The notes below the pieces were generated by a model, which was not told the DNA's origin, made no database searches, and saw only the letters and a program-made list of their open reading frames with translations. Positions 1,326-17,810 of a DNA stretch of 64,000 nt are shown here, in pieces (the stretch's first letter is position 1; the number at the start of each line of letters is the position of its first letter). Position numbers and translations under genes: made by a program. Source of the DNA: Nonomuraea sp. NBC_00507 (GTDB lineage: Bacteria > Actinomycetota > Actinomycetes > Streptosporangiales > Streptosporangiaceae); NCBI RefSeq assembly GCF_036013525.1, contig NZ_CP107853.1, positions 1,426,001 through 1,490,000 of the forward strand, in the 5' to 3' direction.

Positions 1326-1440
1326 ATGCCGCCGTTCGGCGTTCTCAGTCTCCCGCGTCGGCTGCTCGCTTGCGGTTGAGCTCACCCGCAGATTATCCCA
1401 CGGACTGATCACGCTCCAGCGTCGTGGAGAGGCGTGAACT

Positions 1441-1600
1441 GCCAAAGGAGACAGCAGGAAGACAGTCCAGCGACAGCCGCGGAGATTACTCTATTCGTCG
1501 TCGTACTTCCTGCTCCAGAAAGTTAGACTCCCGCGAGATTCGCTAAGTATGTGGTGCCACTGATGCTCATTGCTGCGGCCGTTCAGGCGACAGCAATGTG
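1441..1600 (+). repeat. Copy 1 of a diverged promoter/leader repeat (other copies at 11057 and, inverted, 50697)
   Basis: This stretch aligns over about 150 bp with 11057-11215 (+) and 50697-50535 (-). It carries the triple GACAG operator, a TACTCT box, a common block ending in TTCCTGCT-CAGAAAG, and a segment encoding a signal-peptide-like stretch. In the 50 kb copy that stretch is the real N-terminus of a secreted protein. Here it reads RFAKYVVPLMLIAAAVQATA, with no start codon and an in-frame TAG just before it, so that part is a relic. The copy drives the six-cysteine peptide operon. Confidence 0.7.
1450..1492 (+). promoter_or_regulatory. Triple GACAG operator with -10 box, peptide operon promoter (site 1 of 5)
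   Basis: GACAG occurs at 1450, 1461 and 1472, exactly 11 bp apart. A TACTCT box at 1487-1492 follows after 10 bp. Repeats 2 and 3 cover the place of a -35 element. SARP activators are known to bind directly repeated heptamers with 11-bp periodicity ending about 8 bp from the -10. The first peptide ATG is 175 bp downstream, so a long 5' leader is implied. Binding by a SARP is inferred from the geometry. Confidence 0.6.
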
Positions 1601-1666
1601 GCATTAACTTCTTCCCGATTCTCTCCTGAATTGCCCCGACGATATGCGAAAAGGAGTATCGCATTC

Positions 1667-1855
1667 ATGATCAAGAACCTCGGTGATCGACTGCTCGCCG
1701 TGATGGTGCCGCGAACCGAGGCGAGCGCCGACCAGTTCACCCAGTGGTGCGGCTGTTGGCAGACCCATCATTACTACCGCACCTGCTGGTGGGAGGGTCC
1801 GGTGGGTGGGAGCTACAGCTGCGGCGCATGCTATGACAGCGGGATTTTCTGCTGA
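1667..1855 (+). CDS. Six-cysteine exported peptide precursor 1 (62 aa)
   Basis: ATG 1667 is preceded by AAAAGGAG at 1649-1656 with 10-nt spacing, which decides the start. The leader, residues 1-21, is MIKNLGDRLLAVMVPRTEASA: basic N-terminus, short hydrophobic stretch, and an A-S-A that fits signal-peptidase cleavage. The predicted core of 41 residues is rich in Trp and Tyr and has cysteines at 28, 30, 40, 52, 55 and 62, in the pattern C-x-C-x9-C-x11-C-x2-C-x6-C, ending at the last Cys. It is the first of three tandem paralogues and precedes redox, export and peptidase genes. I infer a secreted three-disulfide peptide (toxin, bacteriocin or signal). I do not recognise a named family. Confidence 0.75.
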   Translation: MIKNLGDRLLAVMVPRTEASADQFTQWCGCWQTHHYYRTCWWEGPVGGSYSCGACYDSGIFC

Positions 1856-1887
1856 GCGGGTGATGGCGGCCGCGTGACCCTCGGGTG

Positions 1888-1906
1888 GCCCGCTGTCACC
1901 GCGGGC
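1888..1906 (+). promoter_or_regulatory. Intercistronic hairpin after peptide 1
   Basis: GCCCGC, a 7-nt loop TGTCACC and GCGGGC form a stem downstream of the stop. The same hairpin follows all four peptide genes with the loop nearly constant. There is no T-run, so it looks more like an mRNA-stabilising or partial-termination element than a strong terminator. Confidence 0.5.
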
Positions 1907-1981
1907 GTCCGTTTCCTTCCCAGAATTGCTCCGACATCCTTCCCGGAATTGTCCGACGGAATGCGAAAGGACTTCGCGCTC

Positions 1982-2170
1982 ATGATCAAAAAGCTTAGCG
2001 ACCGGCTGCTCGCCGTGCTGGTGGCGGCCACCGAGGCTAGTGCCAGCGAGTTCACCCAGTGGTGCGGCTGTTGGGAGTATCGGCAGTTTTACCGCACCTG
2101 CCGGTGGGACGGCCCTGTGGGAGGGTCGTACACCTGTGGCCCCTGCTACGACAGCCTGATTCTGTGCTGA
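1982..2170 (+). CDS. Six-cysteine exported peptide precursor 2 (62 aa)
   Basis: ATG 1982 has AAAGGA at 1966-1971, the same start context as its neighbours. The leader reads MIKKLSDRLLAVLVAATEASA and keeps the A-S-A site, but has AA in place of the PR found in the other copies. The core has cysteines at 28, 30, 40, 52, 55 and 62, in the pattern C-x-C-x9-C-x11-C-x2-C-x6-C. It shares TQWCGC, FYRTC, GPVGGSY and CGPC blocks with peptides 1 and 3. The TGG-rich aromatic core is conserved while short loops vary (EYRQ against QTHH and ERWH). That is the pattern expected of a diversifying exported peptide family. Function is unknown. Confidence 0.75.
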   Translation: MIKKLSDRLLAVLVAATEASASEFTQWCGCWEYRQFYRTCRWDGPVGGSYTCGPCYDSLILC

Positions 2171-2199
2171 GCGGGTGATGGCAGCCGCCTGACGCTCGG

Positions 2200-2226
2200 G
2201 GTGGCCCGCTGTGACCGCGGGCCACC
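2200..2226 (+). promoter_or_regulatory. Intercistronic hairpin after peptide 2
   Basis: A perfect 10-bp stem GGTGGCCCGC / GCGGGCCACC encloses loop TGTGACC and is followed by a short GCTTTT. It is the strongest of the four copies. Placed between peptide genes, it could raise peptide transcript stability relative to the downstream machinery. Confidence 0.5.
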
Positions 2227-2396
2227 GCTTTTCGTCGGAGTCGGGTCGGGCTTGCTGCCCAGCTGGCCCGTCGCTGGCCACCGCCGGGCTGTCGCCGGGC
2301 TGTCGCGACAGCCCGGCACACGACAGCCGGGTGACAGTGGGTGTCTATAGCATTTCCCGGAGTTGCCCAACGGCATGCGAAAGGAGTTTCGCGCTC

Positions 2397-2582
2397 ATGA
2401 TCAAAAATCTTAGCGACCGGCTGCTCGCCGTGCTGGTGCCGCGCACCGAGGCGAGCGCCGACGAGTTCACCCAGTGGTGCGGCTGTATTGAGCGTTGGCA
2501 TTACTACCGCAACTGCAGGTGGAATGGTCCGGTCGGAGGGACGTACCACTGCGGGCTTTGCGTCCAAAGCATTCCCTGCTGA
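2397..2582 (+). CDS. Six-cysteine exported peptide precursor 3 (61 aa)
   Basis: ATG 2397 lies 10 nt after AAAGGAG (about 2380-2386). The leader reads MIKNLSDRLLAVLV then PRTEASA, with the conserved A-S-A. Core cysteines are at 28, 30, 40, 52, 55 and 61, the last loop being one residue shorter than in the paralogues. The core carries HYYRNC and GPVGGTYHCGLC and ends in PC. About 165 nt and a hairpin separate it from the thioredoxin-like gene. Role and limits are as for peptide 1: a secreted disulfide peptide is inferred and the activity is not known. Confidence 0.75.
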   Translation: MIKNLSDRLLAVLVPRTEASADEFTQWCGCIERWHYYRNCRWNGPVGGTYHCGLCVQSIPC

Positions 2583-2612
2583 GCGGGTGATGGCAGCCGG
2601 GTGAGTTTCGGA

Positions 2613-2637
2613 GTGGCCCGCTGTGACCGCGGGCCAC
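2613..2637 (+). promoter_or_regulatory. Hairpin after peptide 3
   Basis: A 9-bp stem GTGGCCCGC / GCGGGCCAC with loop TGTGACC lies between the last peptide and the export/redox genes. If it causes partial termination it would set a high peptide-to-machinery ratio. Confidence 0.5.
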
Positions 2638-2747
2638 CGCCGTTTCGTCGGGGTCGGGCCCGCCACGCGCGTTCGTGGAGCCCGGTGGGCTCGGTAGGTT
2701 CGTCCCGGTCGAGATATGCCGGGAGATGTCAGGAGATGGAGGCCGGC

Positions 2748-3305
2748 ATGGTCTACATGGTCGTTGGTGTGGTGTTCGTCGGGGTGCTCTGCGTGCTGAA
2801 CCTGCTGCTGACGTACGGCGTCATCCGGCGGCTGCGCGAGCACGCCGCCCTGCTGTCCCGCGCCGGTACGGCGGGCGCGACGCCGGGCGGCGCGGGCGGG
2901 CCGGACAAGGTCGTCGGCACGGTCGCCGGCGAGTTCAAGGCGGTGACCACCGAAGGCGCCGTCATCACCCGGGACCGGTTCGACGGCGCGGCCGGCGCCT
3001 ACCTGGTTGGGTTCTTCCTGGAGAGCTGCGCGCCCTGCAAGGAGGAGCTGCCGAAGTTCCTCGATCGGGCCGCCGGTTTCCCGGGCGGGCGCGACCACGT
3101 CTACGCGATCACCCGCGGTGTGACCGATGAGGCCGTGGCCGCCCTGTGGGCGGTCGCCCACGTGGTGACCGGCGAGGCCGGCGATGAGATCGGCACGGCG
3201 TTCGCGGTCACCGGCTATCCGTCCTTTTTCCTGGTCGGGGAAGGCGGCCTGGTACATGCCGGCGCCTTCAAAGTTGAGGCGCTGCCCGCCGCCTCGCCGG
3301 TGTGA
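2748..3305 (+). CDS. Membrane-anchored TlpA/MauD-like thiol-disulfide oxidoreductase (185 aa)
   Basis: One N-terminal membrane helix (residues about 1-25, VYMVVGVVFVGVLCVLNLLL) is followed by a linker and an extracytoplasmic thioredoxin fold. The active site is C94-A-P-C97 in FFLESCAPCKEELPKF, and the cis-proline region is TGYPSFFLV with Pro158. GGAGG at 2738-2742 favours ATG 2748; ATG 2736 is also in frame. MauD proteins of this architecture act with MauE to form or shuffle disulfides in the small subunit of methylamine dehydrogenase. Here the likely client is the six-cysteine peptides encoded just upstream. It is followed after 24 nt by the ABC exporter. Confidence 0.8.
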   Translation: MVYMVVGVVFVGVLCVLNLLLTYGVIRRLREHAALLSRAGTAGATPGGAGGPDKVVGTVAGEFKAVTTEGAVITRDRFDGAAGAYLVGFFLESCAPCKEELPKFLDRAAGFPGGRDHVYAITRGVTDEAVAALWAVAHVVTGEAGDEIGTAFAVTGYPSFFLVGEGGLVHAGAFKVEALPAASPV

Positions 3306-3329
3306 CGTATCGAAAGGATGCACAAGCCG

Positions 3330-5180
3330 ATGCATGAGTCGGCCCGCGGCGTGTCCGTGTCGGATGTCCGGGCAGCGTTGGGCCTCGCCTGGCGTGCCGC
3401 GCCTGGCACGCTGGTCCTGGGCGGGGTGTGCGCGCTGGCCGCCGGCACGCTGCCGGTGGTGGCGGCGTGGCTCACGAAGGCGGTCGTCGACCGGCTCGCG
3501 GTTCCTGCCGCCGGCTCGGGCGGCCTGGCGATGGTCGCGGCCGGGTTGGTGGCGGCCACACTGCTGGTGGCGCTGGTACCCCGGCTTGCGCAGTACCTGC
3601 GGGCGGAGTCGGACCGGGCGGTGGCGCTGCTCGCTCAAGAGCGTCTGTTCACGGCCGTGGACGGTTTCCACGGCTTGGGCCGATTCGAGGATCCGGGTTT
3701 CCTCGACCGGCTGCGGCTGGCCCAGCAGTCCGGCGGGCGCGCCCCTGGCCAGGTCGTCCACAGCCTCTTCGAGCTGGCCGCCGGGATCATCACGGTCTGC
3801 GGCCTGCTGGGATCGCTGCTGCTGCTCAGTCCGGTGATGGCGATCGTGGTCACGGGCGCGGCGGTTCCCGTGCTCATGGCCGAACTGAGCCTGTCGCGAC
3901 ACAACATGGCGATGTTGTGGGGAATCAGCACGGTCGAACGACGCGAGTTCTTCTACGCGAGCCTGCTGTCGACCGTGCAGGCGGCCAAGGAGATCCGGCT
4001 GTTCGGCACGGGCGGGTTCCTGCGCCGGCGGATGCTGGACGAGCGCCGCGCGGCAGACGCTGACCGCAGCCGCATGGCGCGGCACGAACTACGGGTCCAC
4101 GGCGGCCTGGCTCTTCTGTCGGCAGGAGTCGGCGGAGCGGGCCTGGCATGGGCGATCGTCCTGGCCGCAGGCGGTGGGCTCACCATCGGAGATGTGACCA
4201 TGTTCGTCGCCGCGGTGGCTGGTGTGCAGGCCGCAGTGGCGAAGGTGACGTCGGCGACCGCGCTCGCGCACCAGCAAATGCTCATGTTCAGCCACTACCT
4301 CGCGGTCCTGCGCGCCGAGCCCGACCTACCCGCCCCGGCCGTCCCGCAGGCGCTGCCGGAGTTGCGGCGCGGCATCGAGCTCCGCGACGTGTGGTTCCGC
4401 TACTCCGACGACCATCCGTGGTCGCTGGCCGGCGTCGATCTGTTCATCCCGCACGGCCGCGCCACCGCCCTGGTGGGCCGCAACGGCGCGGGCAAGAGCA
4501 CTCTGGTGAAACTGCTGTGCAGGTTCTACGACCCGGGCAGGGGGCGCATCCTGTGGGACGGCGTCGACATCCGGCACGTGCCGGTCGAGGACCTGCGGGC
4601 CAGGATCGGAGCTGTTTTCCAGGACTTCGTGTGCTACGACATGAGCGCCGCCGAGAACATCGGCCTGGGCGACGTGACGGCGATCGGCGACCAGGCGCGG
4701 ATCGAGAAGGCGGCCGTTGCCGCCGGGGTCCACGACGTGCTGGCCCAGCTGCCGCACGGCTATCGGACCCCGCTCACCCGAATGTTCTCCGGTGATGCCG
4801 ATGACCATGACCCGGAGACCGGAGTGGTGCTCTCAGGCGGGCAGTGGCAGCGCGTGAGCCTGGCCCGCTCGCTGCTGCGCGACCGGCCCGACCTGCTCAT
4901 CCTGGACGAACCCAGCTCCGGGCTCGACGCGGTGGCCGAGCACGAGATCCATACCGCGCTGCGGATGCAGCGGGCCGGCCGTACGTCTCTGCTCGTGTCC
5001 CACCGGCTCGGCGCGGTCCGCGAGGCGGACCAGATCGTCGTGCTGTCCGGCGGGCGGGTCGCCGAACACGGGACCCACGACGAGCTGATCATCCGCGATG
5101 GGGAGTACGCCACCCTGTTCCGGCTCCAGGCGGCCGGATACGCCGCGACCCCGACGCTGACCGGCGAGCCGGCGCCATGA
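3330..5180 (+). CDS. ABC exporter, fused membrane and ATPase domains (616 aa)
   Basis: The N-terminal half, residues about 20-310, is a six-helix exporter domain. The C-terminal half has all nucleotide-binding motifs: Walker A GRNGAGKST (383-391), Q-loop in VFQDF, signature LSGGQ (501), Walker B LLILDEP (522-528) and H-loop His558. It lacks an N-terminal C39 peptidase domain, and the peptides lack a double-Gly site, so leader removal must be done by another enzyme. GAAAGGA at 3312-3318 suits ATG 3330; ATG 3318 is too close to it. The stop overlaps the next start as ATGA. The likely role is export of the six-cysteine peptides; an immunity role is possible. Confidence 0.85.
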   Translation: MHESARGVSVSDVRAALGLAWRAAPGTLVLGGVCALAAGTLPVVAAWLTKAVVDRLAVPAAGSGGLAMVAAGLVAATLLVALVPRLAQYLRAESDRAVALLAQERLFTAVDGFHGLGRFEDPGFLDRLRLAQQSGGRAPGQVVHSLFELAAGIITVCGLLGSLLLLSPVMAIVVTGAAVPVLMAELSLSRHNMAMLWGISTVERREFFYASLLSTVQAAKEIRLFGTGGFLRRRMLDERRAADADRSRMARHELRVHGGLALLSAGVGGAGLAWAIVLAAGGGLTIGDVTMFVAAVAGVQAAVAKVTSATALAHQQMLMFSHYLAVLRAEPDLPAPAVPQALPELRRGIELRDVWFRYSDDHPWSLAGVDLFIPHGRATALVGRNGAGKSTLVKLLCRFYDPGRGRILWDGVDIRHVPVEDLRARIGAVFQDFVCYDMSAAENIGLGDVTAIGDQARIEKAAVAAGVHDVLAQLPHGYRTPLTRMFSGDADDHDPETGVVLSGGQWQRVSLARSLLRDRPDLLILDEPSSGLDAVAEHEIHTALRMQRAGRTSLLVSHRLGAVREADQIVVLSGGRVAEHGTHDELIIRDGEYATLFRLQAAGYAATPTLTGEPAP

Positions 5181-5710
5181 GCCACATCGAGATCTTCGCC
5201 CGGTGCCTGATCGGCCTGGTGTTCTGTGCCTCGGCGATCGGCAAGCTCCGGGGCGCGGAGGCGTTCCTGGCATTCGAGCGGTCGGTACGCGACTTGAGGC
5301 TGCTGCCGCTCGCGACGATACGCCCGACAGCACGGGCGGTCGTGGGCGCCGAGCTGACCGTCCCCGTACTGGTGACGGTGCCGTATACGGCCCAGGCTGG
5401 GCTGGCCACCACACTCCTGCTGCTGACCGGGTTCACCGTCGTCGTCGTGCTGATGCTCCGCCGAGGCACACCCGCGTCCTGCGCGTGCTTCGGCGCCTCG
5501 GGCGCTCCGTACGGCAGGCGGCACGTCGTGCGAAACCTCGTTCTCCTGACCGTGGCGGCGGCCGGGATCGTCACCCCTGAGTCCGCCCTCCACCCCGCCG
5601 GGCTGGCCATCGCTATCGTGGCCGCTATCTTGGCCAGCGCCGTCGTCGTCACGCTCGACGAGCTGGCGGACTTGTTCGCCAGTACGGCGGAGCAGGGCCG
5701 GAACCAATGA
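5177..5710 (+). CDS. MauE-like (MauE/DoxX family) redox membrane protein (177 aa)
   Basis: A small polytopic membrane protein with about four helices. It opens with IFARCLIGLVFCASAIGKLRG, the usual MauE/DoxX start, and carries a cysteine pair C102-A-C104 in ASCACFGASG between helices, the expected place for the MauE redox pair. In methylamine utilisation clusters MauE works with the thioredoxin-like MauD in disulfide formation; both partners are present here without any methylamine dehydrogenase gene. Its start overlaps the exporter stop (ATGA) and its stop overlaps the peptidase start (ATGA), so the three are translationally coupled. Confidence 0.8.
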   Translation: MSHIEIFARCLIGLVFCASAIGKLRGAEAFLAFERSVRDLRLLPLATIRPTARAVVGAELTVPVLVTVPYTAQAGLATTLLLLTGFTVVVVLMLRRGTPASCACFGASGAPYGRRHVVRNLVLLTVAAAGIVTPESALHPAGLAIAIVAAILASAVVVTLDELADLFASTAEQGRNQ

Positions 5711-6189
5711 TCATCGCGATCTGCGGGCTGCTCGCGATGACGGTGACGGCCGTGGCCCTGATCCGCCGCTACCTGACGATCGTCACGGTGCGCGGGGAGA
5801 GCATGACGCCCACGTACCGGCCCGGCGACCGGCTGCTTGCCCGGCGATGGGGTCTGCACCGCCTACGGCGCGGGGACGTCGTCGTGCTCGACGGCGCGCG
5901 CATCGCGGGCCCCCGTACGCCGGTCCCCGGCGACCTGGTGCTGAACGACAGGATCCTCAAACGCGTCACCGCGTTGCCCGGCGACCCCGTGCCGTACAGC
6001 CGCATCGACGACCGCGTCGCCGATCAGCAGACCGTCCGCGTACTACCGCGGCACATCGTCGTCCTCGGTGACAACCCCATGCTGAGCGCGGATTCACGCG
6101 TCTTCGGCCCCGTCGACCAGGACCACGTCCGCGCCGTGGTCATCCGCCCACTGGCCACCAACCTCCAGCCCTCGCCGGACCGCCGCTGA
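5707..6189 (+). CDS. S26-family (type I) signal peptidase (160 aa)
   Basis: One N-terminal membrane anchor (residues about 2-20) is followed by box B GESMTPTYRPGD with nucleophile Ser32, box D RILKRVTALPGD with general-base Lys85, and box E GDNPMLSADSRVFGPV. At 160 residues it is short for a housekeeping leader peptidase and fits a dedicated accessory enzyme. All peptide precursors carry an A-S-A site after residue 21, the expected cut for such an enzyme. It is the last gene of the coupled exporter-mauE-peptidase set, followed by about 180 bp without a gene. I infer that it removes the peptide leaders outside the membrane. Confidence 0.85.
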   Translation: MIIAICGLLAMTVTAVALIRRYLTIVTVRGESMTPTYRPGDRLLARRWGLHRLRRGDVVVLDGARIAGPRTPVPGDLVLNDRILKRVTALPGDPVPYSRIDDRVADQQTVRVLPRHIVVLGDNPMLSADSRVFGPVDQDHVRAVVIRPLATNLQPSPDRR

Positions 6190-7014: not shown

Positions 7015-8569
7015 ATGCAGGCACCGTACGACACCGAGGCCACCGCTGACGTCTTTGCGAAGGCGAGGAACACCTTCAACTGGCTCATCGGACACCTCAG
7101 CGACGCGCAGACCGGGACGCTTGCCCATGACCGGCTGGAGGAGACCATCACCGAGCAGGGCCGGGAGCTGCAGCGCCTGCTGCTGCAGGCCCACCTTGAC
7201 CTGCGCGCGCTGCGCGCGCTGCGCGAGCTGGAGCAGGTACACCACGCCCGCCACCCCGACGGTGGCGCCGCGGGCGTGATCGGCGCGGACGGGGTGATCC
7301 GGCGGCGGGTGGAGCTCGGGCACCACCGCCTGCTCGCCACGGTGACCGGGACGGTGACGCTCACCCGGTGCGCGTGGCGGGCCCCGGGGGGTGCGCAACG
7401 TGTATCCGGCGGACGCGGCGTTGTCGCTGCCGGCGGTGCGGCACTCGGCCGGGCTGGCCAAGCTCGCGGTCATCGAGACGGTGCGCGGCTCGTTCGACGT
7501 CGCCCTGGCGGCGATCACCACACGGTGCGGTCAGGTGATCGGCAAACGGCAGATCGAGCAGCTGGTCGCCCAGGCCGCGGCCGATGTCGACGCCTTCTAC
7601 ACCGCGCAGACGGTGCTGCCGTGCACGGCGTCCACGGTGCTGGCGATCAGCGTGGACGGCAAGGGCATCGCGATGCGCCCCGAAGCGCTGCGGCCCGCGA
7701 CCGCCAAGGCCGCCGCCCGCGCCCGGGCCACGTTCCGCACCCGGCTGGCGGCCGGGGAGAAACCGGCGCGCAAACGGATGGCGACGCTAGGGGTGGTCTA
7801 CGACGCCGAACCCGCACCCCGGCGGCCGCACGATGTGATCGCCGTCCCGGGCGGGCGATCCGGCCGGCGCCTGCCACGGGCCCGGCCGAACGCGACGCGC
7901 AAGTGGCTGTGCGGCTCGGTCGTCACCGGCCCCGGCCCTGTGATCGCCAAGGTGTTCGATCATGCCGAGGCTCGTGATCCCGCGCATGCCCGTCCCTGGG
8001 TCGTGCTGGTCGACGGGGCCCGCCACCAGCTCGACCTGATCATCGCCGAAGCCGCCCGGCGCCGCATCCGCGTCCACATCGTGATCGATTTCGTGCACGT
8101 GCTGGAGAAGTTATGGGCTGCTGCGTGGAGTTTGCACCCGCCCGCGGCGCCGGCCGCGGAGGACTGGGTCGCCGGGCATGCCCTGGCCCTGCTGGCCGGG
8201 CACACCGGCCAGGTCATCACCACGCTGAGGGCGCAGGCCGCCACAGCCGGCGCGCAGTACCGTGACGGCATCGACGCGTGCATCCGCTATCTGTCCAACA
8301 ACGCCGGGCATCTGCGGTATGACCAGGCGCTGGAGGCGGGATGGCCGATCGCGACCGGGGTGGTCGAGGGCGCGTGCCGTCATCTGATCGCCGACAGATT
8401 CGACCTGGCCGGGGCACGCTGGGGCCTGGCCGGAGCCGAGGCGGTGCTGAAGCTCCGCGCGCTGGTCGCCAACGGTCATCTGGAGGAGTACTGGGCTTTC
8501 CATCTCGCCCGACAACACGAACGCGTCCACCAGACCGGCTACCAGGACGGATACACCCTTACGGCTTGA
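7015..8569 (+). pseudogene. ISKra4-family transposase, interrupted by a single-base frameshift
   Basis: The N-terminal part (from MQAPYDTEATADVF at 7015) and the C-terminal part (from VRNVYPADAALSLP at 7391 to 8569) together make a transposase of about 515 residues. A run of six G at about 7385-7390 shifts frame; with five G it would read straight through. DDE-type blocks are visible: LAISVDGKGIAM, VVLVDGARHQLD and the late GVVEGACRHLIADR. The shift may be inactivating, a sequencing slip, or programmed, as in some ISs. A fragment of a related copy lies at 28.6-28.9 kb. Confidence 0.8.
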
Positions 8570-9353: not shown

Positions 9354-9983
9354 TTGACGAATCCGAAAGGCAGGTTCGTCCTGCTGGTCATGTTCCTGGT
9401 AGCTTCGGTCATGAGCGTCGCGCCTGCGAGCGCCAGTGGCGGGACGGTGGGCCGCCACACTACTGAGCGGACGGCCAGCAGGGCGGATGACCCCGTGGGT
9501 ACGGCAGGTATCGGTCAGCGCGTCGAAATACAGCATCAGTATGCGCACCGGAGCCTGTTCCAGTGTCCGGCGGACATCTGTAATCTCGGCGACGCCTACC
9601 GCGGACACAGTCTGTCCGTCATCTGCCAGGAGAGCGTGTACGTTCTCGTCTTCAACCACTGGAACAAACACGTGGGATTCATTCAGCCTAAATGGTTGAC
9701 ATCCCATGCTCCGCCGCCTAGGTGCTCGGATGCCGGCCGCGTTGCCCAGGTCCGCGAAGGCTTCTTCGAACCTCAGGCGGTCTACCAATGTCCGGCCGAT
9801 ATCTGTAATTCCGGACATATCCCACACGAAAGGATGTATGTCAGGCATATCTGTAGATATGGCACTTCAACATACCACTTGCTTTACGTTCCGGAGAACG
9901 GTTACGTTGGCTTCTATCCGGGCTTCGTCCGATTCCCCGATGAGGTATCTCCCACCCTCAAGGACTGCGACGAATTCCCCTAA
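9354..9983 (+). CDS. Secreted protein with two internal repeats (209 aa), function unknown
   Basis: TTG 9354 follows AAGGAGGA (9343-9350), a strong ribosome site. Residues 1-27 form a Sec signal peptide: basic start, FVLLVMFLVASVMSV core, ASA cleavage site. The mature part has two homologous units of about 55-60 residues, each opening with [FY]QCPADICN and containing paired cysteines and a closing VGF[IY] block. This suggests two SH3-like or other small beta domains. Base composition is less GC-rich than the neighbours. The promoter carries the operator shared with the six-cysteine peptide operon, so co-regulation is likely. No family is recognised. Confidence 0.75.
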   Translation: MTNPKGRFVLLVMFLVASVMSVAPASASGGTVGRHTTERTASRADDPVGTAGIGQRVEIQHQYAHRSLFQCPADICNLGDAYRGHSLSVICQESVYVLVFNHWNKHVGFIQPKWLTSHAPPPRCSDAGRVAQVREGFFEPQAVYQCPADICNSGHIPHERMYVRHICRYGTSTYHLLYVPENGYVGFYPGFVRFPDEVSPTLKDCDEFP

Positions 9984-10849: not shown

Positions 10850-11056
10850 GTTGTGTTGATCCTTTCGAGGTCTCACCTGACGAGGTCGAGTAGGGGGCGT
10901 AGTTGCCTAGCGGACCTGTTATAAGCACCGTGTCCTGCGAAGAACAAATAGACCGCACACCACTGTCAAACACCGGGAGTTCTCCTCAACGCTCCGCATA
11001 TATGGGGTAATTGGTGGCCGTCATTCTCTCTGTCGAGTATGATTACCTTCACTGTC

Positions 11057-11215
11057 AAAGGAGACAGCTGGAAGACAGGGCAGCGACAGCTGTGGACGTT
11101 ACTCTATTCATCGTCGTACTTCCTGCTTCAGAAAGGAGGGTTCCCGCAAGATTCGCCGACTGCGTAGTGGCATGGATGCTCGCTGCTACGGCGGTTTAGG
11201 CGACAGCAATTTCGA
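11057..11215 (+). repeat. Copy 2 of the promoter/leader repeat
   Basis: It aligns with 1441-1600 and with the inverse of 50535-50697. The signal-peptide-like stretch reads ARFADCVVAWMLAATAV and then stops. It has no start codon at the position where the 50 kb copy has TTG, so it is a non-coding relic between the promoter and the peptide gene. Confidence 0.7.
11063..11105 (+). promoter_or_regulatory. Triple GACAG operator with -10 box (site 3 of 5)
   Basis: GACAG at 11063, 11074 and 11085 is spaced exactly 11 bp, with TACTCT at 11100-11105 after 10 bp. A CTGTC, the inverse pentamer, sits one further 11-bp step upstream at 11052. It drives the orphan six-cysteine peptide. Confidence 0.65.
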
Positions 11216-11251
11216 AATTACCGCGACGGAAGGCGAAGGGGCTTTGCGCTC

Positions 11252-11443
11252 ATGATCAAGAATCTTAGCGACCGACTGCTCGCCGTGCTGGTACCGCGCA
11301 CCGAGGCTAGTGCCTGGGAGTTCACCAAGTACTGCCTCTGTTTGAATGGCTGGCATTACTACAAGACCTGCTCGTGGCTCGACCCGGCGGGAACGGAATA
11401 CAGCTGCGGCGGCTGCTGGAACAGCCAGGTTCGGTGCTCGTGA
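11252..11443 (+). CDS. Six-cysteine exported peptide precursor 4, orphan copy (63 aa)
   Basis: The leader MIKNLSDRLLAVLV plus PRTEASA is identical to that of peptide 3. The core has cysteines at 28, 30, 40, 52, 55 and 62, the same spacing as copies 1 and 2, then one extra Ser. The core is clearly diverged (KYCLCLNG, WLDPAGTEY, CGGCWNSQVRCS). It stands 5 kb from the export, redox and peptidase genes and must use them in trans if active. The start is fixed by alignment with the paralogues; the upstream GAAGGCGAAGGG is a weaker ribosome site than in copies 1-3. Conserved leader with variable core argues that the leader is read by shared machinery. Confidence 0.75.
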   Translation: MIKNLSDRLLAVLVPRTEASAWEFTKYCLCLNGWHYYKTCSWLDPAGTEYSCGGCWNSQVRCS

Positions 11444-12243: not shown

Positions 12244-14676
12244 TCACCCCTCTCGATGGACGCTTGGGAAGCCGAGGTCGACGGTGGTGCCGGAACGGCG
12301 GTCGATCTGGGCAAGTTTGTCCTCTGCTCCGGCGAGGCTAACCTTCAGACCTTCGACCTCTCCGAGCCAGCCTTCGCGTTCGGCTTCGGCGATGCGGGCG
12401 ATCAGGTTGTCGCGGATCTCGGCGATGCGGGGCCGATGGTCGGTCGAAGGCCAGTGCAGGGGGCACCGCAGACAACTGTGCTCGTGAATACATGGGGTGC
12501 CGAACGCGCGCCCGCAGGTCCCGGTCGCCACCTTTCTCAACTCGAAGTGGCCGAGGAACTCTTGCCATTCTTCGTCGGTAGGGACCCGGTATTCCTCGCT
12601 AGGACGCAGCGCCCGGCGTCGGGCGAGGAAGGCCAGGTGGGCCTGGATGGCTTCATCTGGATAGACGGCCTTATAGCCGAGAGTGACGTTGATATCTTGG
12701 TGCCCGGCTATGACCTGGGCGATGTGGGGCGGTAGCCCGCTGAGAATGGCATCGGTCAAAAACAACCTCCGAAAGTCATGGGGTGTGTAATGCAGCGGCT
12801 CGCCGGTCGCGGAGTCGATGAGACCGGTATCGGAGAGCGCAGTGTTGAGCAGGTGCCGGACGGTGCTGGGGTTCATGGCCTGGAGTTCGCCGCGCAGCAG
12901 CCGCTGGAACAGGAACGGTGCGGGTGTCCGCCACGCGCATTCACGGACGTCGTAGGAGGCGACGAGCGGGATGCTGCCGGTGGCGGCGCGGAGCCTGCAG
13001 ATGATGGCGCTGAGGACATCCGCCAGCTCCGGAGAAACAAGGAGCAGTCTTTCGGTATCGGTCTTGGACGGGGCGATCTGCAGCAGCGGCACGACTTCAC
13101 CGGTGGTGGGCAGCTTGTATTGGACCAGGCTGTGATGGGTCAGCTCGAGGAGCTCCTCGACGCGGACGCCGGTCGCTCGCAGGACCTCCACGATCGCGAA
13201 GCTCCAGAAGGCGCGGTCCTCCTCAAGGGTCAGGTCGCGACGTTTGCCGGTGGCGGGGTCGTCGGCCCAGATCTTGCCGGAGCAGGCCCGGCTGGAGGTG
13301 GTGGCGCGGAACAGGGTCTGTCCGGCGGCGGTGAAGCTGTCGCCGGGAGCGGTCTGGCGGGCGGCGGCCAGCAGCGCCGCTGTGTCCATGCGCCGCTGGT
13401 CGACAGTGCGAACCAGGATCGGCAGCACGGGAAGTCGTTCGCGGGTGCGGGCATCCATCCGCGACTTGCGGTGCCGTTTGGCCTTGCGACGGTCGACCTC
13501 TTCGCTTCCGACGGGGCAGGGGGCCACCCACCGGCCCCAGCGGCCCGGGTCCTCGATCGCCCACTGGGCCAGGTCGAGATAGAAGGCCCGGACCGGCGTC
13601 AGGCATTCGCGGAAGCTGATCCGCGGCACCGACGCCTCGGTCTTGCTGCCGTCGGGAGCGGTGACGGTCTTGGTTCTGGTGCGCAGCCGCTGCTTCCATG
13701 CATCGGCGACCTCGGCGGCCAGGTGGAGGCTGTCGATGCCGGGATGGTGCTCCTCCAGGTCGGCCCAGAACCGTTTGCCCAGGAACATTGAGAGCGACAC
13801 CAGGCTGGTGTAGTCCAGCGTGGGCTGGCGTTCGCGCAGGTAGTCCACCAGCAGGTCGCGGATCGGGCGGCAGACCAGCCCGTATCGGTCGATCAGTTCA
13901 TCGGGGGTGCGGGGCCGCGCGGTCCGCAGCGCACGGAGGCTGGCCGGCGCCTGATCGTCGAAGGCTCCCAGCGTCCGCAGCATCCGGTAGAACGCCGCAG
14001 TGTCGCCGACCGGCTTGGCATAGACCTCATTCTCGATGTCCAGCAAGTCCAGGACGTCCCCAGTGGTGATTTCGGTGAGGACGCCGCCCTTGGCCGCCAG
14101 GATCAACGCCGCGCGGTGGATGGTCCGCTGCGTGGCCAGCGGACTCACCTGCGGATCACCGTCGGCAAGGGCTCGCAGCCGGGCGAACCCGCTGCTGTCG
14201 CGGCACTGGGCCAGGACGCTGGTCAGGGCTCCCGGGCGGGGACGGCAGGTGAGCAGCCAAGGCAGGGACGGCCGGATGAGATCGCCGCCGATCGCGACGA
14301 ACACCGCCGCCGACAACTCTCCGGACCTCCACTGGGGCTGGCCTCGCTCGCGTAGCCACGCGTCGGGGAGCTGCCGCCATGAACCGGCGGCGGCTTCCGC
14401 GCCGCTGGTCCGCCACCGTTCCTGCCAGGTGTCTCCCGGCTGATCTTCCAGCCAGTCCAGCAGTGACGCCAACCCGCGGTTGCGGCAGTACTGGCTGTTG
14501 GGCTTGTCGAGGGTGAACGGCGCTCGGGTTAGCCGCGCGAACACCTCCGCGCGTTCCTGCCGGGTGGCCACCCAATCCGCCCCGGTTCTTCGCGCCGACA
14601 CCAGCGGCGATGCCGCCGCAGGTGGGAGGGCGACGTCGGGACTCCCGGCTTCGTCGAGGACCACGATCGGCGTCAT
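12244..14676 (-). CDS. Large tyrosine recombinase, TnpB-like (810 aa)
   Basis: The catalytic domain is in the C-terminal half. Arg is in RATGVRVEELLELTHH, the H-x-x-R box is HYTPHDFRRLFLTDA, then AGHQDINVTLGYKAVYP supplies the second His and the Tyr nucleophile. After it comes a cysteine-rich tail (GTCGRAFGTPCIHEHSCLRC) and a coiled coil. Length and domain order fit the second recombinase of Tn554-type transposons. Its start overlaps the stop of the upstream recombinase by 4 nt, so the two are coupled. Confidence 0.75.
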   Translation of the reverse strand: MTPIVVLDEAGSPDVALPPAAASPLVSARRTGADWVATRQERAEVFARLTRAPFTLDKPNSQYCRNRGLASLLDWLEDQPGDTWQERWRTSGAEAAAGSWRQLPDAWLRERGQPQWRSGELSAAVFVAIGGDLIRPSLPWLLTCRPRPGALTSVLAQCRDSSGFARLRALADGDPQVSPLATQRTIHRAALILAAKGGVLTEITTGDVLDLLDIENEVYAKPVGDTAAFYRMLRTLGAFDDQAPASLRALRTARPRTPDELIDRYGLVCRPIRDLLVDYLRERQPTLDYTSLVSLSMFLGKRFWADLEEHHPGIDSLHLAAEVADAWKQRLRTRTKTVTAPDGSKTEASVPRISFRECLTPVRAFYLDLAQWAIEDPGRWGRWVAPCPVGSEEVDRRKAKRHRKSRMDARTRERLPVLPILVRTVDQRRMDTAALLAAARQTAPGDSFTAAGQTLFRATTSSRACSGKIWADDPATGKRRDLTLEEDRAFWSFAIVEVLRATGVRVEELLELTHHSLVQYKLPTTGEVVPLLQIAPSKTDTERLLLVSPELADVLSAIICRLRAATGSIPLVASYDVRECAWRTPAPFLFQRLLRGELQAMNPSTVRHLLNTALSDTGLIDSATGEPLHYTPHDFRRLFLTDAILSGLPPHIAQVIAGHQDINVTLGYKAVYPDEAIQAHLAFLARRRALRPSEEYRVPTDEEWQEFLGHFELRKVATGTCGRAFGTPCIHEHSCLRCPLHWPSTDHRPRIAEIRDNLIARIAEAEREGWLGEVEGLKVSLAGAEDKLAQIDRRSGTTVDLGFPSVHREG

Positions 14677-15896
14677 GAGGTCCTGGTCCCGAACAACACG
14701 TCGAGCGTCTCGGGCCGGTAGCCTGCCGCTGGTGTCGGCGTGACCCGCTGAGCTGCTTGCCGGACCTGTTCGGCATGGTGAGCCAGGACCCGGCGGATCA
14801 CCTCTTCCTTGCGCGGCGTCAAGTAAATCTGAGTGGTTGTGAGCAGGGCGTGCCCAAGGACTGACTGGACATCGGTGAGCGGCAGGTCAGGGTCCTCGGC
14901 CATCCGATAGGCCGCCGTGTGACGCAGGGCATGCAAGGTCGCCGTACTTCCGGCCGCTTCACCGGCCCGCTCGAACATGCGGTGCGCCGCGTGATAGGTC
15001 AACGGCCGCAAGGGTCTGCGCAGGGTCCACCACAACGGCTGACGTCGTCCCTTGGGGAGCAGTTCGTCCATCTCCACCTGGTAGAGCCGCAGCCAGACGA
15101 ACGCGTCACTGGACGCCGGAAGCTCCTGGACCGCCCCGCTGCCCTTACGCGTCACCGTGATGAGCTGCCGGCCGGGATCGACGCCGCCCTGCGTCGCCGA
15201 CAACAGCTCCGAGGCCCGCGCCCCAGTCGAGACATAGAAGGCGACCAGCGCCCGATCCCGATGCGAGGGAAGGCGGGCGAAGATCTCGTTGAACTCCGCG
15301 TCCGGGATATTGCGAGGGATCCTGGTCGGCACCTTCGGCCGATACAGCCCCGTCCGCTCGTTGCGGTGCGGTTCCATCGGATTGTGGTGCGCATGCGCTC
15401 GCCCGGCCCGCCGCGACCGGTCTAGCGGGAACGGGTTGATGATCGGCCCGGTGCCCGCGTCGAGGTGGAAGTCGTAGAAGCGGCGAAGCACCGTCTCGCT
15501 GTGAGCCCGGACCGACGGAGCATACGCCTCGCCTACCGTACCGGCGGGCGCTTCGTCTGGCCTGCGCCAGTGCGGCCGCGCCGGTTTGCCCGCCACCAGC
15601 ATCCACCGGCAGAAATCACGAGCCTCCGCCCGGGTCGCCCTGTCCCAGGGCGACCCAATCGCCCAAAGGAACCGCATCCACCTCAACAAATCCATCCCAT
15701 AGGACCTGAGCGTCGCCTCGCTGCGATCTGCCGCCTGCAGGTCGCGCAAGAACACCGCGACCGGCTGCACCGCTGCCCCCGCAGGATCGATCAGCCGGAA
15801 CGGCTCCCACGGATCGCCCGTCTCCTCCAGGGCACCCACGATCGGGACCAGCAACTCGGCCAGATCCCGCTGCGACTCGTCTTCGAGCATGAGCAC
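14673..15896 (-). CDS. Tyrosine recombinase, TnpA-like (407 aa)
   Basis: An N-terminal SAM-like core-binding region (LRSYGMDLLRWMRFLWAIG) is followed by a catalytic domain. Arg is in STGARASELLSA, the H-x-x-R box is LHALRHTAAYRM, and LGHALLTTTQIYLTPRKEEV supplies the later His and the Tyr. It is the first gene of the trio TnpA-TnpB-TnpC with ATGA coupling to the second. The element ends were not identified; Tn554-type elements make no target duplication. Confidence 0.75.
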   Translation of the reverse strand: MLMLEDESQRDLAELLVPIVGALEETGDPWEPFRLIDPAGAAVQPVAVFLRDLQAADRSEATLRSYGMDLLRWMRFLWAIGSPWDRATRAEARDFCRWMLVAGKPARPHWRRPDEAPAGTVGEAYAPSVRAHSETVLRRFYDFHLDAGTGPIINPFPLDRSRRAGRAHAHHNPMEPHRNERTGLYRPKVPTRIPRNIPDAEFNEIFARLPSHRDRALVAFYVSTGARASELLSATQGGVDPGRQLITVTRKGSGAVQELPASSDAFVWLRLYQVEMDELLPKGRRQPLWWTLRRPLRPLTYHAAHRMFERAGEAAGSTATLHALRHTAAYRMAEDPDLPLTDVQSVLGHALLTTTQIYLTPRKEEVIRRVLAHHAEQVRQAAQRVTPTPAAGYRPETLDVLFGTRTS

Positions 15897-16328: not shown

Positions 16329-17699
16329 TCAGGACCGGGCGTCCGGGGCCGGTGAACGAGGGGTCAACGGACGTGCGGCGGCGGCGTAGGCGGCGAAGTC
16401 GGCCACCGGTGCCGCAGCGGCGCCGGTGCCGCGCAGCCGGTCGGCTTCGGCGCGGGCGGCGGGCGAGAGTGGCCGGCGGGTCTTGTGCGGGCAGGGCCCG
16501 CCCCCACCCAGCCGGGCGCGGGCGGCCAGGACCTTGGCCTCCAGCGCGGCGACGTGCCCGGCCGCTTCGATCACCACGCCGGCGTGATCGACGGCCCGGG
16601 CGTGCGCGGCCAGCACCGCTCCGCCCGCCGTAACCACCTCCAGCACGCCGGTGCCCAGCCGGTGCCGCACCAGCATCACCTCGCCCGCGTGCCCCGGCGG
16701 CACGGAGTAGAAGTTGCCGCGGAAACTCACCAGCGCCTGCGGCGAGACGACCCGCCCGACCTCCAGCACCGCCGGGAACGCCTGCGCCGGCAGCGGCCTC
16801 AGCGGCTCACGGCGGGCCAGCTCGGCCACGCTCACCTTGCCGCCATCGATCTTCCGGATCCGGATGTCACCCCTGCGGCGGCACCACTCATCCAGCGTGC
16901 CCTGCGCCCGGCCGGGCGACAGATCCTCGCCCACGGTGCGCCACCAGCGCTGCGCCGCGACATGGTTGGCCTTCTCCACGCTGCCCTTGCGCCAGCCCCG
17001 CCGCGACGGACAGACCCGCACGATCACCCCGTAATGCTTGGCCACCGCCGCAAACGACGCCGACACCTCGCCACTGCCGGGATCACACACAGTGGCCATC
17101 CGATCAAAGCGCCACTCCGCGCTGACACCGCCCAGCCGCTCACCCACCCCGCGCAACGCCTCGATCAGATGCGGCTGATCTTCGGACTCGGTCAGCACAC
17201 CCCGCCAGATGCCCGAGTACGGCAGCGTGCCGACCAGCAGATGCGCCCCCTTGTCCCAGCCCCATCGGGCCGGCGGATCGGGCAGCTCCAGCCAGTCCCA
17301 CTGAGTCTCCACGCCGGGCGGGTGATCGATCCGGACATACTCGACCGGGCCACCCGCGTGCGCGCACCGCTCACAGACCGGCCGCAACCCCCGGGCCCGC
17401 AACGCCCGGGTGAAGGTCGAATAGCCACCGCCATATCCCAGGCCGACCAGTTCGTCGAACAACGTGGTGCCCCACACGTGCGGATCCCCGGTATCGGCGT
17501 CCAGCCGCAGCCGGCAGTACTCGGCGTACGGCTCGAACGGATCAGCTCCGCTTCGCCGCCGCTGTCCCGGCACCCGCTCGCCGTTCAGATACGCCCGGAT
17601 CGTCGGCCTGCTGCGGCCCAGATGCCGCGCGATCGCCGAGATCGACCAGCCACGTTTACGCAAAGCCTGCGCTTCCACGTCTTCCCCCTGTGTGAGCAT
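16329..17699 (-). CDS. istA: IS21-family transposase IstA (about 456 aa)
   Basis: ATG 17699 gives MLTQGEDVEAQALRKRGWSI with a helix-turn-helix (SAIARHLGRSRPTIRAYLNG). A DDE integrase core follows: THE first Asp in VETQWDWLELP, the second in RWRFD-type EWRFDRMATVCD, and the Glu in WRKGSVEKANHVAAQRWW. The C-terminal Mu-type beta-barrel (VSFRGNFYSVPPGHAGEVML) is typical of IstA. The partner ATPase IstB, normally directly downstream, is absent, so the element cannot move on its own. Confidence 0.8.
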   Translation of the reverse strand: MLTQGEDVEAQALRKRGWSISAIARHLGRSRPTIRAYLNGERVPGQRRRSGADPFEPYAEYCRLRLDADTGDPHVWGTTLFDELVGLGYGGGYSTFTRALRARGLRPVCERCAHAGGPVEYVRIDHPPGVETQWDWLELPDPPARWGWDKGAHLLVGTLPYSGIWRGVLTESEDQPHLIEALRGVGERLGGVSAEWRFDRMATVCDPGSGEVSASFAAVAKHYGVIVRVCPSRRGWRKGSVEKANHVAAQRWWRTVGEDLSPGRAQGTLDEWCRRRGDIRIRKIDGGKVSVAELARREPLRPLPAQAFPAVLEVGRVVSPQALVSFRGNFYSVPPGHAGEVMLVRHRLGTGVLEVVTAGGAVLAAHARAVDHAGVVIEAAGHVAALEAKVLAARARLGGGGPCPHKTRRPLSPAARAEADRLRGTGAAAAPVADFAAYAAAARPLTPRSPAPDARS

Positions 17700-17810
17700 C
17701 GAATACGGCTCCCCCGACTCGCTTCGAAACGTGATCATCCGAAGCGTCGAGGGAGCCCACCGAGACAAGAACGATCTCTCCCGGCGAGTCGCTCACCTGG
17801 CAAATTTCAG

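Follow-up and report, generated by a model that had tools for sequence, protein, structure and literature searches.

A putative maturation and export system for small, cysteine-rich leader peptides in Nonomuraea and other actinomycetes

Introduction

Near the left end of a 64,000-nucleotide stretch of DNA from the soil actinomycete Nonomuraea sp. NBC_00507 (assembly GCF_036013525.1, contig NZ_CP107853.1, positions 1,426,001 to 1,490,000; the whole stretch is termed the window and numbered from its first letter), three small open reading frames (ORFs) encoding six-cysteine peptides stand ahead of genes for a membrane-anchored thioredoxin, an ABC exporter, a MauE-like membrane protein and an S26-type peptidase. 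The question raised by this locus is whether the small ORFs and the genes behind them form a single pathway and, if so, what that pathway does to the peptides. An initial annotation, made from the sequence without database searches, proposed that the thioredoxin and MauE-like proteins fold the peptides by disulfide formation and that the S26 enzyme removes their leaders.

Here we conclude that the locus probably matures and exports small peptides locked by disulfides, as a system complete in itself. Many actinomycete genera carry the same gene set alongside widely differing peptides, so that it looks like part of a large family of secreted peptides that has barely been studied. This reading is built on observed gene content and its conservation, a common leader rule, even cysteine numbers, paired cysteine changes and a frequent neighbour of the SARP family of regulators.

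Results and Discussion

Organization of the locus

The components are listed in map order, with a fourth precursor and the insertion element that precedes it.

1438..1608, + strand: region upstream of precursor 1, a probable promoter; a repeat, 80% identical to 11051-11221 ahead of precursor 4
1667..1855, + strand: precursor 1, 62 residues; 21-residue leader ending in ASA, 41-residue core, six cysteines
1982..2170, + strand: precursor 2, 62 residues, six cysteines
2397..2582, + strand: precursor 3, 61 residues, six cysteines; last cysteine interval one residue shorter
2748..3305, + strand: TlpA-like thioredoxin, membrane-anchored; CAPC; GVIRRLREH motif in the N-terminal anchor; family profile hidden Markov model (HMM) score 165 bits
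3318..5180, + strand: ABC exporter; transmembrane and ATPase domains in one chain; Pfam matches include no C39 peptidase
5177..5710, + strand: MauE-like membrane protein; CxC (CAC); PF07291, 90.1 bits; family alignment; AlphaFold2 model
5707..6189, + strand: putative leader peptidase of the S26 signal-peptidase type; N-terminal anchor; Ser (GESM) and Lys (LKRV) motifs; TIGR02227, 69.8 bits
6247..9068, + strand: ISKra4-family insertion, outside the system; imperfect inverted arms 6247-6286/9029-9068; transposase 7391-8569
11252..11443, + strand: precursor 4, 63 residues, six cysteines, spacing as in precursors 1 and 2

The ABC and MauE genes overlap by four bases, as do the MauE and S26 genes, and the ISKra4 element and other ORFs lie between the operon and precursor 4. 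The four precursor copies form 227-nucleotide repeats with 64-79% identity to copy 1, and the 171 nucleotides ahead of copies 1 and 4 are repeated as well. The initial annotation had placed the three tandem precursors, the 21-residue leader with its A-S-A site, the CAPC thioredoxin, the exporter without a peptidase domain, the CAC-bearing MauE-like protein and the short S26 peptidase correctly; it missed precursor 4, and the fixed six-cysteine spacing that it described does not hold, the last interval being 6, 6, 5 and 6 in precursors 1 to 4.

Recurrence of the gene set

A genome-contig collection was scanned for the anchor motif of the TlpA-like protein, a search blind to precursors. This yielded 83 stretches, of which 73 encode a relative, and these 73 loci fall in 28 named genera, actinomycetes by name (a genus count that leaves out four metagenome-assembled genome records without a genus), so that restriction to this species could be rejected. 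Within 6 kb of TlpA, 58 of the 73 loci (22 named genera) hold a precursor, TlpA, the ABC protein and S26 together, and 41 (17 named genera) hold all five parts, MauE included, in a gene order that is shuffled among loci; the co-occurrence elsewhere on which the initial annotation had staked its proposal was thus found. Family HMMs located ABC in 68, S26 in 63 and MauE in 47 of the stretches around the 73 TlpA genes. The converse figures weigh against the proposed system, since MauE is missing from the examined stretch in 26 loci, S26 in 10 and ABC in five, and a rule of MauE in every locus had to be abandoned. Sixteen of the 26 MauE-less loci were followed further, and all 15 genomes behind them encode a MauE of the same subfamily elsewhere.

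Searches from the opposite side, with a profile of window precursors 1-3, gave matches at E-values up to 0.1, many of them weak, in 41 of 148 genomes (own included). The 29 new loci obtained in this way (L016-L044, mostly about 3 kb) have TlpA, MauE or S26 beside the match in 22 cases, leaving seven without such neighbours (L016, L035, L037-L039, L042 and L043). Even draws of genomes were positive in at least 24 of 394 from the class (own included; 20 in the same family and four in one other family) and in at least two of 296 from the phylum (own included), lower bounds because no more than 19 and 26 initial candidates per genome, respectively, were scored. Plasmids also carry the gene set: a TlpA match occurred in eight records, and in the two of these that were examined, linear Streptomyces plasmids typed as mobilizable (L149, L150), TlpA, ABC and S26 adjoin a small "hypothetical protein", annotated only as such, that has a recognisable leader and eight or four core cysteines, respectively. 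MauE is listed in one of these two plasmids, for which the gene table is incomplete.

A shared leader ahead of hypervariable cores

Precursors were called as ORFs of at most 85 residues with at least three cysteines and more than 8 bits to a leader HMM. By this definition 71 precursors occur in 66 of the 73 loci (1,120 kb), 51 of them with a start no more than 1 kb from that of TlpA, and no ORF combining leader and cysteines occurs in 20 control stretches (400 kb), all from the window's own genome. The leaders share one pattern, typically DRLLxxLVPxxxAxA, and the cores are hypervariable. A-x-A stands ahead of the first core cysteine in 67 of the 71, and the leaders are not of the double-glycine type. 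Some features of these counts weigh against the proposed system. Since 33 leaders from these very loci served to train the HMM, the figure of 66 in 73 is partly circular, and the control is a single genome; an earlier hand-set leader pattern, drawn up after relatives' precursors had been seen, was found in 37 of the 73 loci and nowhere in the control. Seven loci have no precursor over threshold, and a looser look recovered one of them (L065, sub-threshold), leaving L059, L078, L089, L094, L098 and L102. L059 holds the nearest relative of the window exporter, and S26 was likewise not detected there.

Among the window precursors, leaders differ little (dN, the nonsynonymous substitution rate, 0-0.14 over six pairs) and cores far more (dN 0.22-0.53). 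Core dN exceeds the synonymous rate dS in pairs 1/4 (0.53 vs 0.30) and 2/4 (0.51 vs 0.27) and not in the other four, all on small counts. Of the precursors tested, 22 against both Pfam and NCBIfam and ten more against NCBIfam, none matched a model above its cut-off, and a PDB sequence search with precursor profiles gave no match. A beta-lactamase match of one precursor in NCBIfam (E 0.0022) was weak and taken as chance. As side observations, the putative precursor at 7601 of L116, with three cysteines and no A-x-A, looks decayed, and the L029 precursor, from a genome of the same genus, is letter-identical to that of N. sediminis L071.

The properties of the leader bear on the most conventional explanation of these genes, namely that the precursors are ordinary Sec-exported peptides, cut by a redundant local signal peptidase and oxidised by general means, and that the cluster is a loose neighbourhood. 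A-x-A and an S26 enzyme are indeed hallmarks of ordinary signal peptide cleavage, and the cell envelope is able to oxidise cysteines unaided. The leaders, however, are weakly hydrophobic: the best 10-residue mean Kyte-Doolittle value has a median of 1.34 and a maximum of 2.06 in the 71 precursors (1.51, 2.10 and 1.66 in window precursors 1-3), as against 3.33 and 2.57 in two window ORFs judged by eye to be secreted. A Sec signal peptide was rejected on this ground as the less likely reading of the leader, and the prevalence of the ABC gene (68 of 73 loci) also argues against Sec export; we regard this explanation as very improbable.

Cysteines come and go in pairs

The number of cysteines after the leader is even in 68 of 71 precursors (67 with a cruder leader cut) and odd in three. 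Spacing is diverse, with 57 distinct patterns among the 71, of which 53 are even. Comparison of 165 homologous core pairs gave a cysteine difference of 0 in 98, 2 in 61, 4 in four and 1 in two. Even numbers and gain or loss in pairs favour disulfides as the maturation, as the initial annotation had supposed when it assigned the thioredoxin and MauE pair to the folding of small secreted peptides. Set against this are the three odd-numbered precursors, the non-independence of related precursors as samples, and metal binding, with which an even cysteine number is also compatible.

Within the window's own subfamily the pairing may be traced to positions. Two cysteines are gained jointly in L082, the L047 type and L096, an N-terminal one (N) and another directly behind the third cysteine (X); L046 and L067 keep N and X in the absence of both C3 and C4. 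The simplest reading of these sequence differences is that disulfides would link C3 to C4 and N to X, leaving C1 and C2 to pair with C5 and C6. An AlphaFold2 model of mature peptide 1, from 22 sequences (mean pLDDT 93.2, pTM 0.59), has strands at 2-10, 13-21 and 29-40; read from the strand limits alone, a plain hairpin would place C19 (C3) opposite C31 (C4). Comparison of this fold with the PDB found nothing (best E 2.1), a further point against the proposed system.

The putative maturation and export proteins

The MauE-like protein belongs to the MauE family by its score (PF07291, curated cut-off 27 bits), and the peptidase exceeds its own cut-off of 47 bits for TIGR02227. The thioredoxin matches only thioredoxin-superfamily models (ResA best; also StoA, TrxA, DsbE, AhpC-TSA and Thioredoxin), all below cut-off, and its naming as TlpA therefore rests on the CxxC motif, the anchor and its relatives; the MauD label of the initial annotation had been given by analogy. 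Across the family, CxxC is present in 72 of 73 TlpA proteins (the exception, L115, is a short match) and CxC in all 44 MauE proteins above 90 bits; of 60 S26 proteins above 90 bits, 59 have both the Ser and the Lys motif, and the remaining one, L075, has GSM in a slightly different setting. These motifs, together with the A-x-A of the leaders, are compatible with the role of leader peptidase that had been proposed for S26. The MauE model is helical (mean pLDDT 94.8), and a PDB sequence search with the MauE profile gave no match. Chains of vitamin K-dependent gamma-carboxylase recur weakly against the MauE fold (probability up to 0.41), from which we draw nothing.

The window ABC protein, with no C39 domain among its Pfam matches, differs in this from double-glycine bacteriocin exporters, and profile scans of the window operon and neighbouring ORFs found no enzyme of the lanthipeptide, lasso, sactipeptide or YcaO classes, as the initial annotation had remarked; the 73 other loci were compared among themselves only, not scanned for these enzymes. 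Judged by eye, the ORFs of at least 90 residues common to at least ten of 75 loci are ABC, TlpA, SARP, MauE, S26 and three antisense-looking frames. Other weak Pfam and NCBIfam matches in the scans of the operon proteins were taken as chance.

Several of these results count against oxidative folding. No MauD or DsbA model appears among the matches of the window TlpA up to E 1, oxidase and reductase are not distinguishable from CxxC alone, and the MauE fold has no convincing relative in the PDB (best E 0.54). In a second explanation, TlpA and MauE form a reducing branch that keeps cysteines reduced for an unlinked cross-linking enzyme (making thioethers or other bonds) or for metal binding. The best TlpA profile, ResA, is that of a reductase, though far below cut-off, and metal sites would accommodate even cysteine numbers equally. 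The 57 spacings and the paired gain and loss at distant positions are, however, unlike a metal site, and no modifying enzyme recurs among the common ORFs named above, as judged by eye with only some neighbours profile-scanned. We consider a reducing branch unlikely.

For the preferred reading, an oxidative maturation and export system, we infer each biochemical step, including the direction in which TlpA and MauE operate. The ribosome would make a precursor of about 50-80 residues, whose amphipathic leader, unlike a typical Sec signal, would dock it on the dedicated ABC exporter. The anchored TlpA, working on the outside of the membrane, would oxidise the core cysteines and pass electrons through MauE to the respiratory chain, and S26 would cut after A-x-A to free a core some 30-55 residues long that contains two to five disulfides. 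Because the machinery would read the leader, a single machine could serve many cores, and these would be free to diversify.

Relation to known systems

Glycocins and class II bacteriocins with accessory thiol oxidases are exported leader peptides with disulfides, made with double-glycine leaders and C39-peptidase exporters and, in glycocins, a glycosyltransferase. They differ from the system described here, where double-glycine leader, C39 exporter and glycosyltransferase are not seen.

The closest precedent is decRiPPter (PMC7794033, 2020), a search for ribosomally synthesized and post-translationally modified peptides (RiPPs) that lists three Streptomyces candidate families with mauE, one also with mauD, having precursors of at least eight cysteines and selected by a filter that also asked for a transporter, a peptidase and a regulator. 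These candidates have MauE beside a cysteine-rich precursor, as do the window and the 41 full loci, whereas the window precursors have six cysteines. Three Streptomyces are cited for them, including S. viridosporus T7A, and a locus in our set from S. viridosporus NRRL 2414 (L061, on a 4.4 kb contig), with a ten-cysteine precursor, MauE, TlpA and ABC, is likely of the same kind. In its accessible portions that study deals with Streptomyces only and does not mention a shared leader, cysteine parity, an S26 partner or a wider spread.

Two other systems resemble this one in part. TMcins of Staphylococcus aureus (PMC13252029, bioRxiv 2026) have a secreted leader peptide matured at the membrane and show that a dedicated oxidoreductase can be important to the disulfide of such an exported peptide. 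Their setting is another one, with one disulfide, the DsbA-type TmcD, the S2P-type peptidase TmcP and a transmembrane helix in the product. In methylamine dehydrogenase maturation, as told in PMC7794033, MauE and MauD serve a protein whose disulfides matter. An enzyme subunit is acted on in that case, whereas the putative substrates here are small leader peptides encoded with an exporter and S26. PF02975, the light chain of that enzyme, has no match in the window's genome or in 148 genomes of the class, the control genomes being equally without a match and a positive control lacking.

Nothing in the open-access literature searched, beyond decRiPPter, was recognised as this system, mostly as judged by title and the start of the abstract, and passages of PMC13192320 and PMC8465540 held nothing relevant. 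The initial annotation, which did not recognise the combination as a described class, stands corrected as to full newness, since mauE (and one mauD) families had already been listed by decRiPPter. In the literature searched, no description of the common leader, the machinery or their wide distribution seems to exist. By gene content (a conserved leader, a variable core, and cluster-encoded genes for putative maturation and export) the system would fall within RiPPs in the broad sense, the covalent modification being predicted from cysteine parity and paired change. It is best called a set of leader-guided exported peptides with a putative disulfide-only maturation set, previously glimpsed but, as far as we found, not characterised.

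Multiple systems in one genome and the role of the peptides

The 12.9 Mb genome carries two more complete systems. L013 combines an eight-cysteine precursor and a SARP with S26, MauE, TlpA and ABC, and L014 has S26, ABC, TlpA and MauE beside two dissimilar precursors. The L014 precursors, at 4919 and 5395 on the - strand, have completely different cores behind similar leaders and a single machinery. In a tree of 66 exporters, representing 63 of the 73 loci and the genome's own three, these three are not sisters, and the window exporter groups with that of Pseudonocardia L059 (99/98); the tree suggests that systems were gained repeatedly in this genome by horizontal transfer.

SARPs govern specialised metabolism. 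Of the 73 loci, 39 have a SARP N-terminal domain no further than 6 kb from TlpA, compared with one of 20 control stretches holding such a domain, and the three SARP proteins tested contain Pfam BTAD. The window system has no adjacent SARP, the only SARP-like stretch of the window (tblastn) being at about 36 kb on the - strand.

As to function, antagonism of other bacteria is our tentative first choice, held at somewhat short of even confidence, with signalling next. It is favoured because cores change fast, unlike cores share one machine and SARP genes are neighbours; the absence of evident positive charge from the window cores, which look near neutral and aromatic-rich, and the failure to recognise an immunity gene count against it, each judged by eye with no systematic search. 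The same two features would suit the view that maturation is as proposed and that the peptides are signals or developmental factors, and SARP neighbours, as regulators of specialised metabolism generally, would suit it too. The 57 spacings in 71 precursors nevertheless suggest an arms race rather more than they do a conserved receptor, and unlike precursors on one machine (L014, L052, L117) are likewise not what a signal would lead one to expect; we rate this alternative as possible but doubtful.

A bolder version of the preferred reading, on which our judgement is evenly divided, is that these loci encode a ribosomal peptide class of its own, spread across the actinomycetes and modified solely by a programmed set of two to five disulfides, one leader-reading machine (ABC, TlpA/MauE, S26 and often a SARP) folding and releasing almost any core with an even number of cysteines. 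Such a class would parallel, in bacteria, the way conotoxins or defensins have diversified. If the preferred reading is right, rigid secreted peptides locked by disulfides form an unread library in 28 or more actinomycete genera, from which new scaffolds could be drawn, along with a portable folding machine; MauE and TlpA would be given a role in the oxidative folding of peptides that can be tested, and the leader tag and exporter might be used to produce multi-disulfide peptides in bacteria.

Flanking genes and mobile elements

The left flank of the cluster (2-1445, - strand) encodes an MDMPI_N protein at 2-445 and a piece of an MFS transporter at 439-960. An ORF at 9354-9983 (+ strand), without a Pfam or NCBIfam match, begins like a signal peptide and contains a CPADICN motif twice. 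Two adjoining tyrosine recombinase genes occupy 12244-15896 on the - strand, with a Phage_integrase match at 12244-14676 and a XerC/D-like gene at 14673-15896, and an IS21-family transposase at 16329-17768 (- strand) is a further sign of a mobile region.

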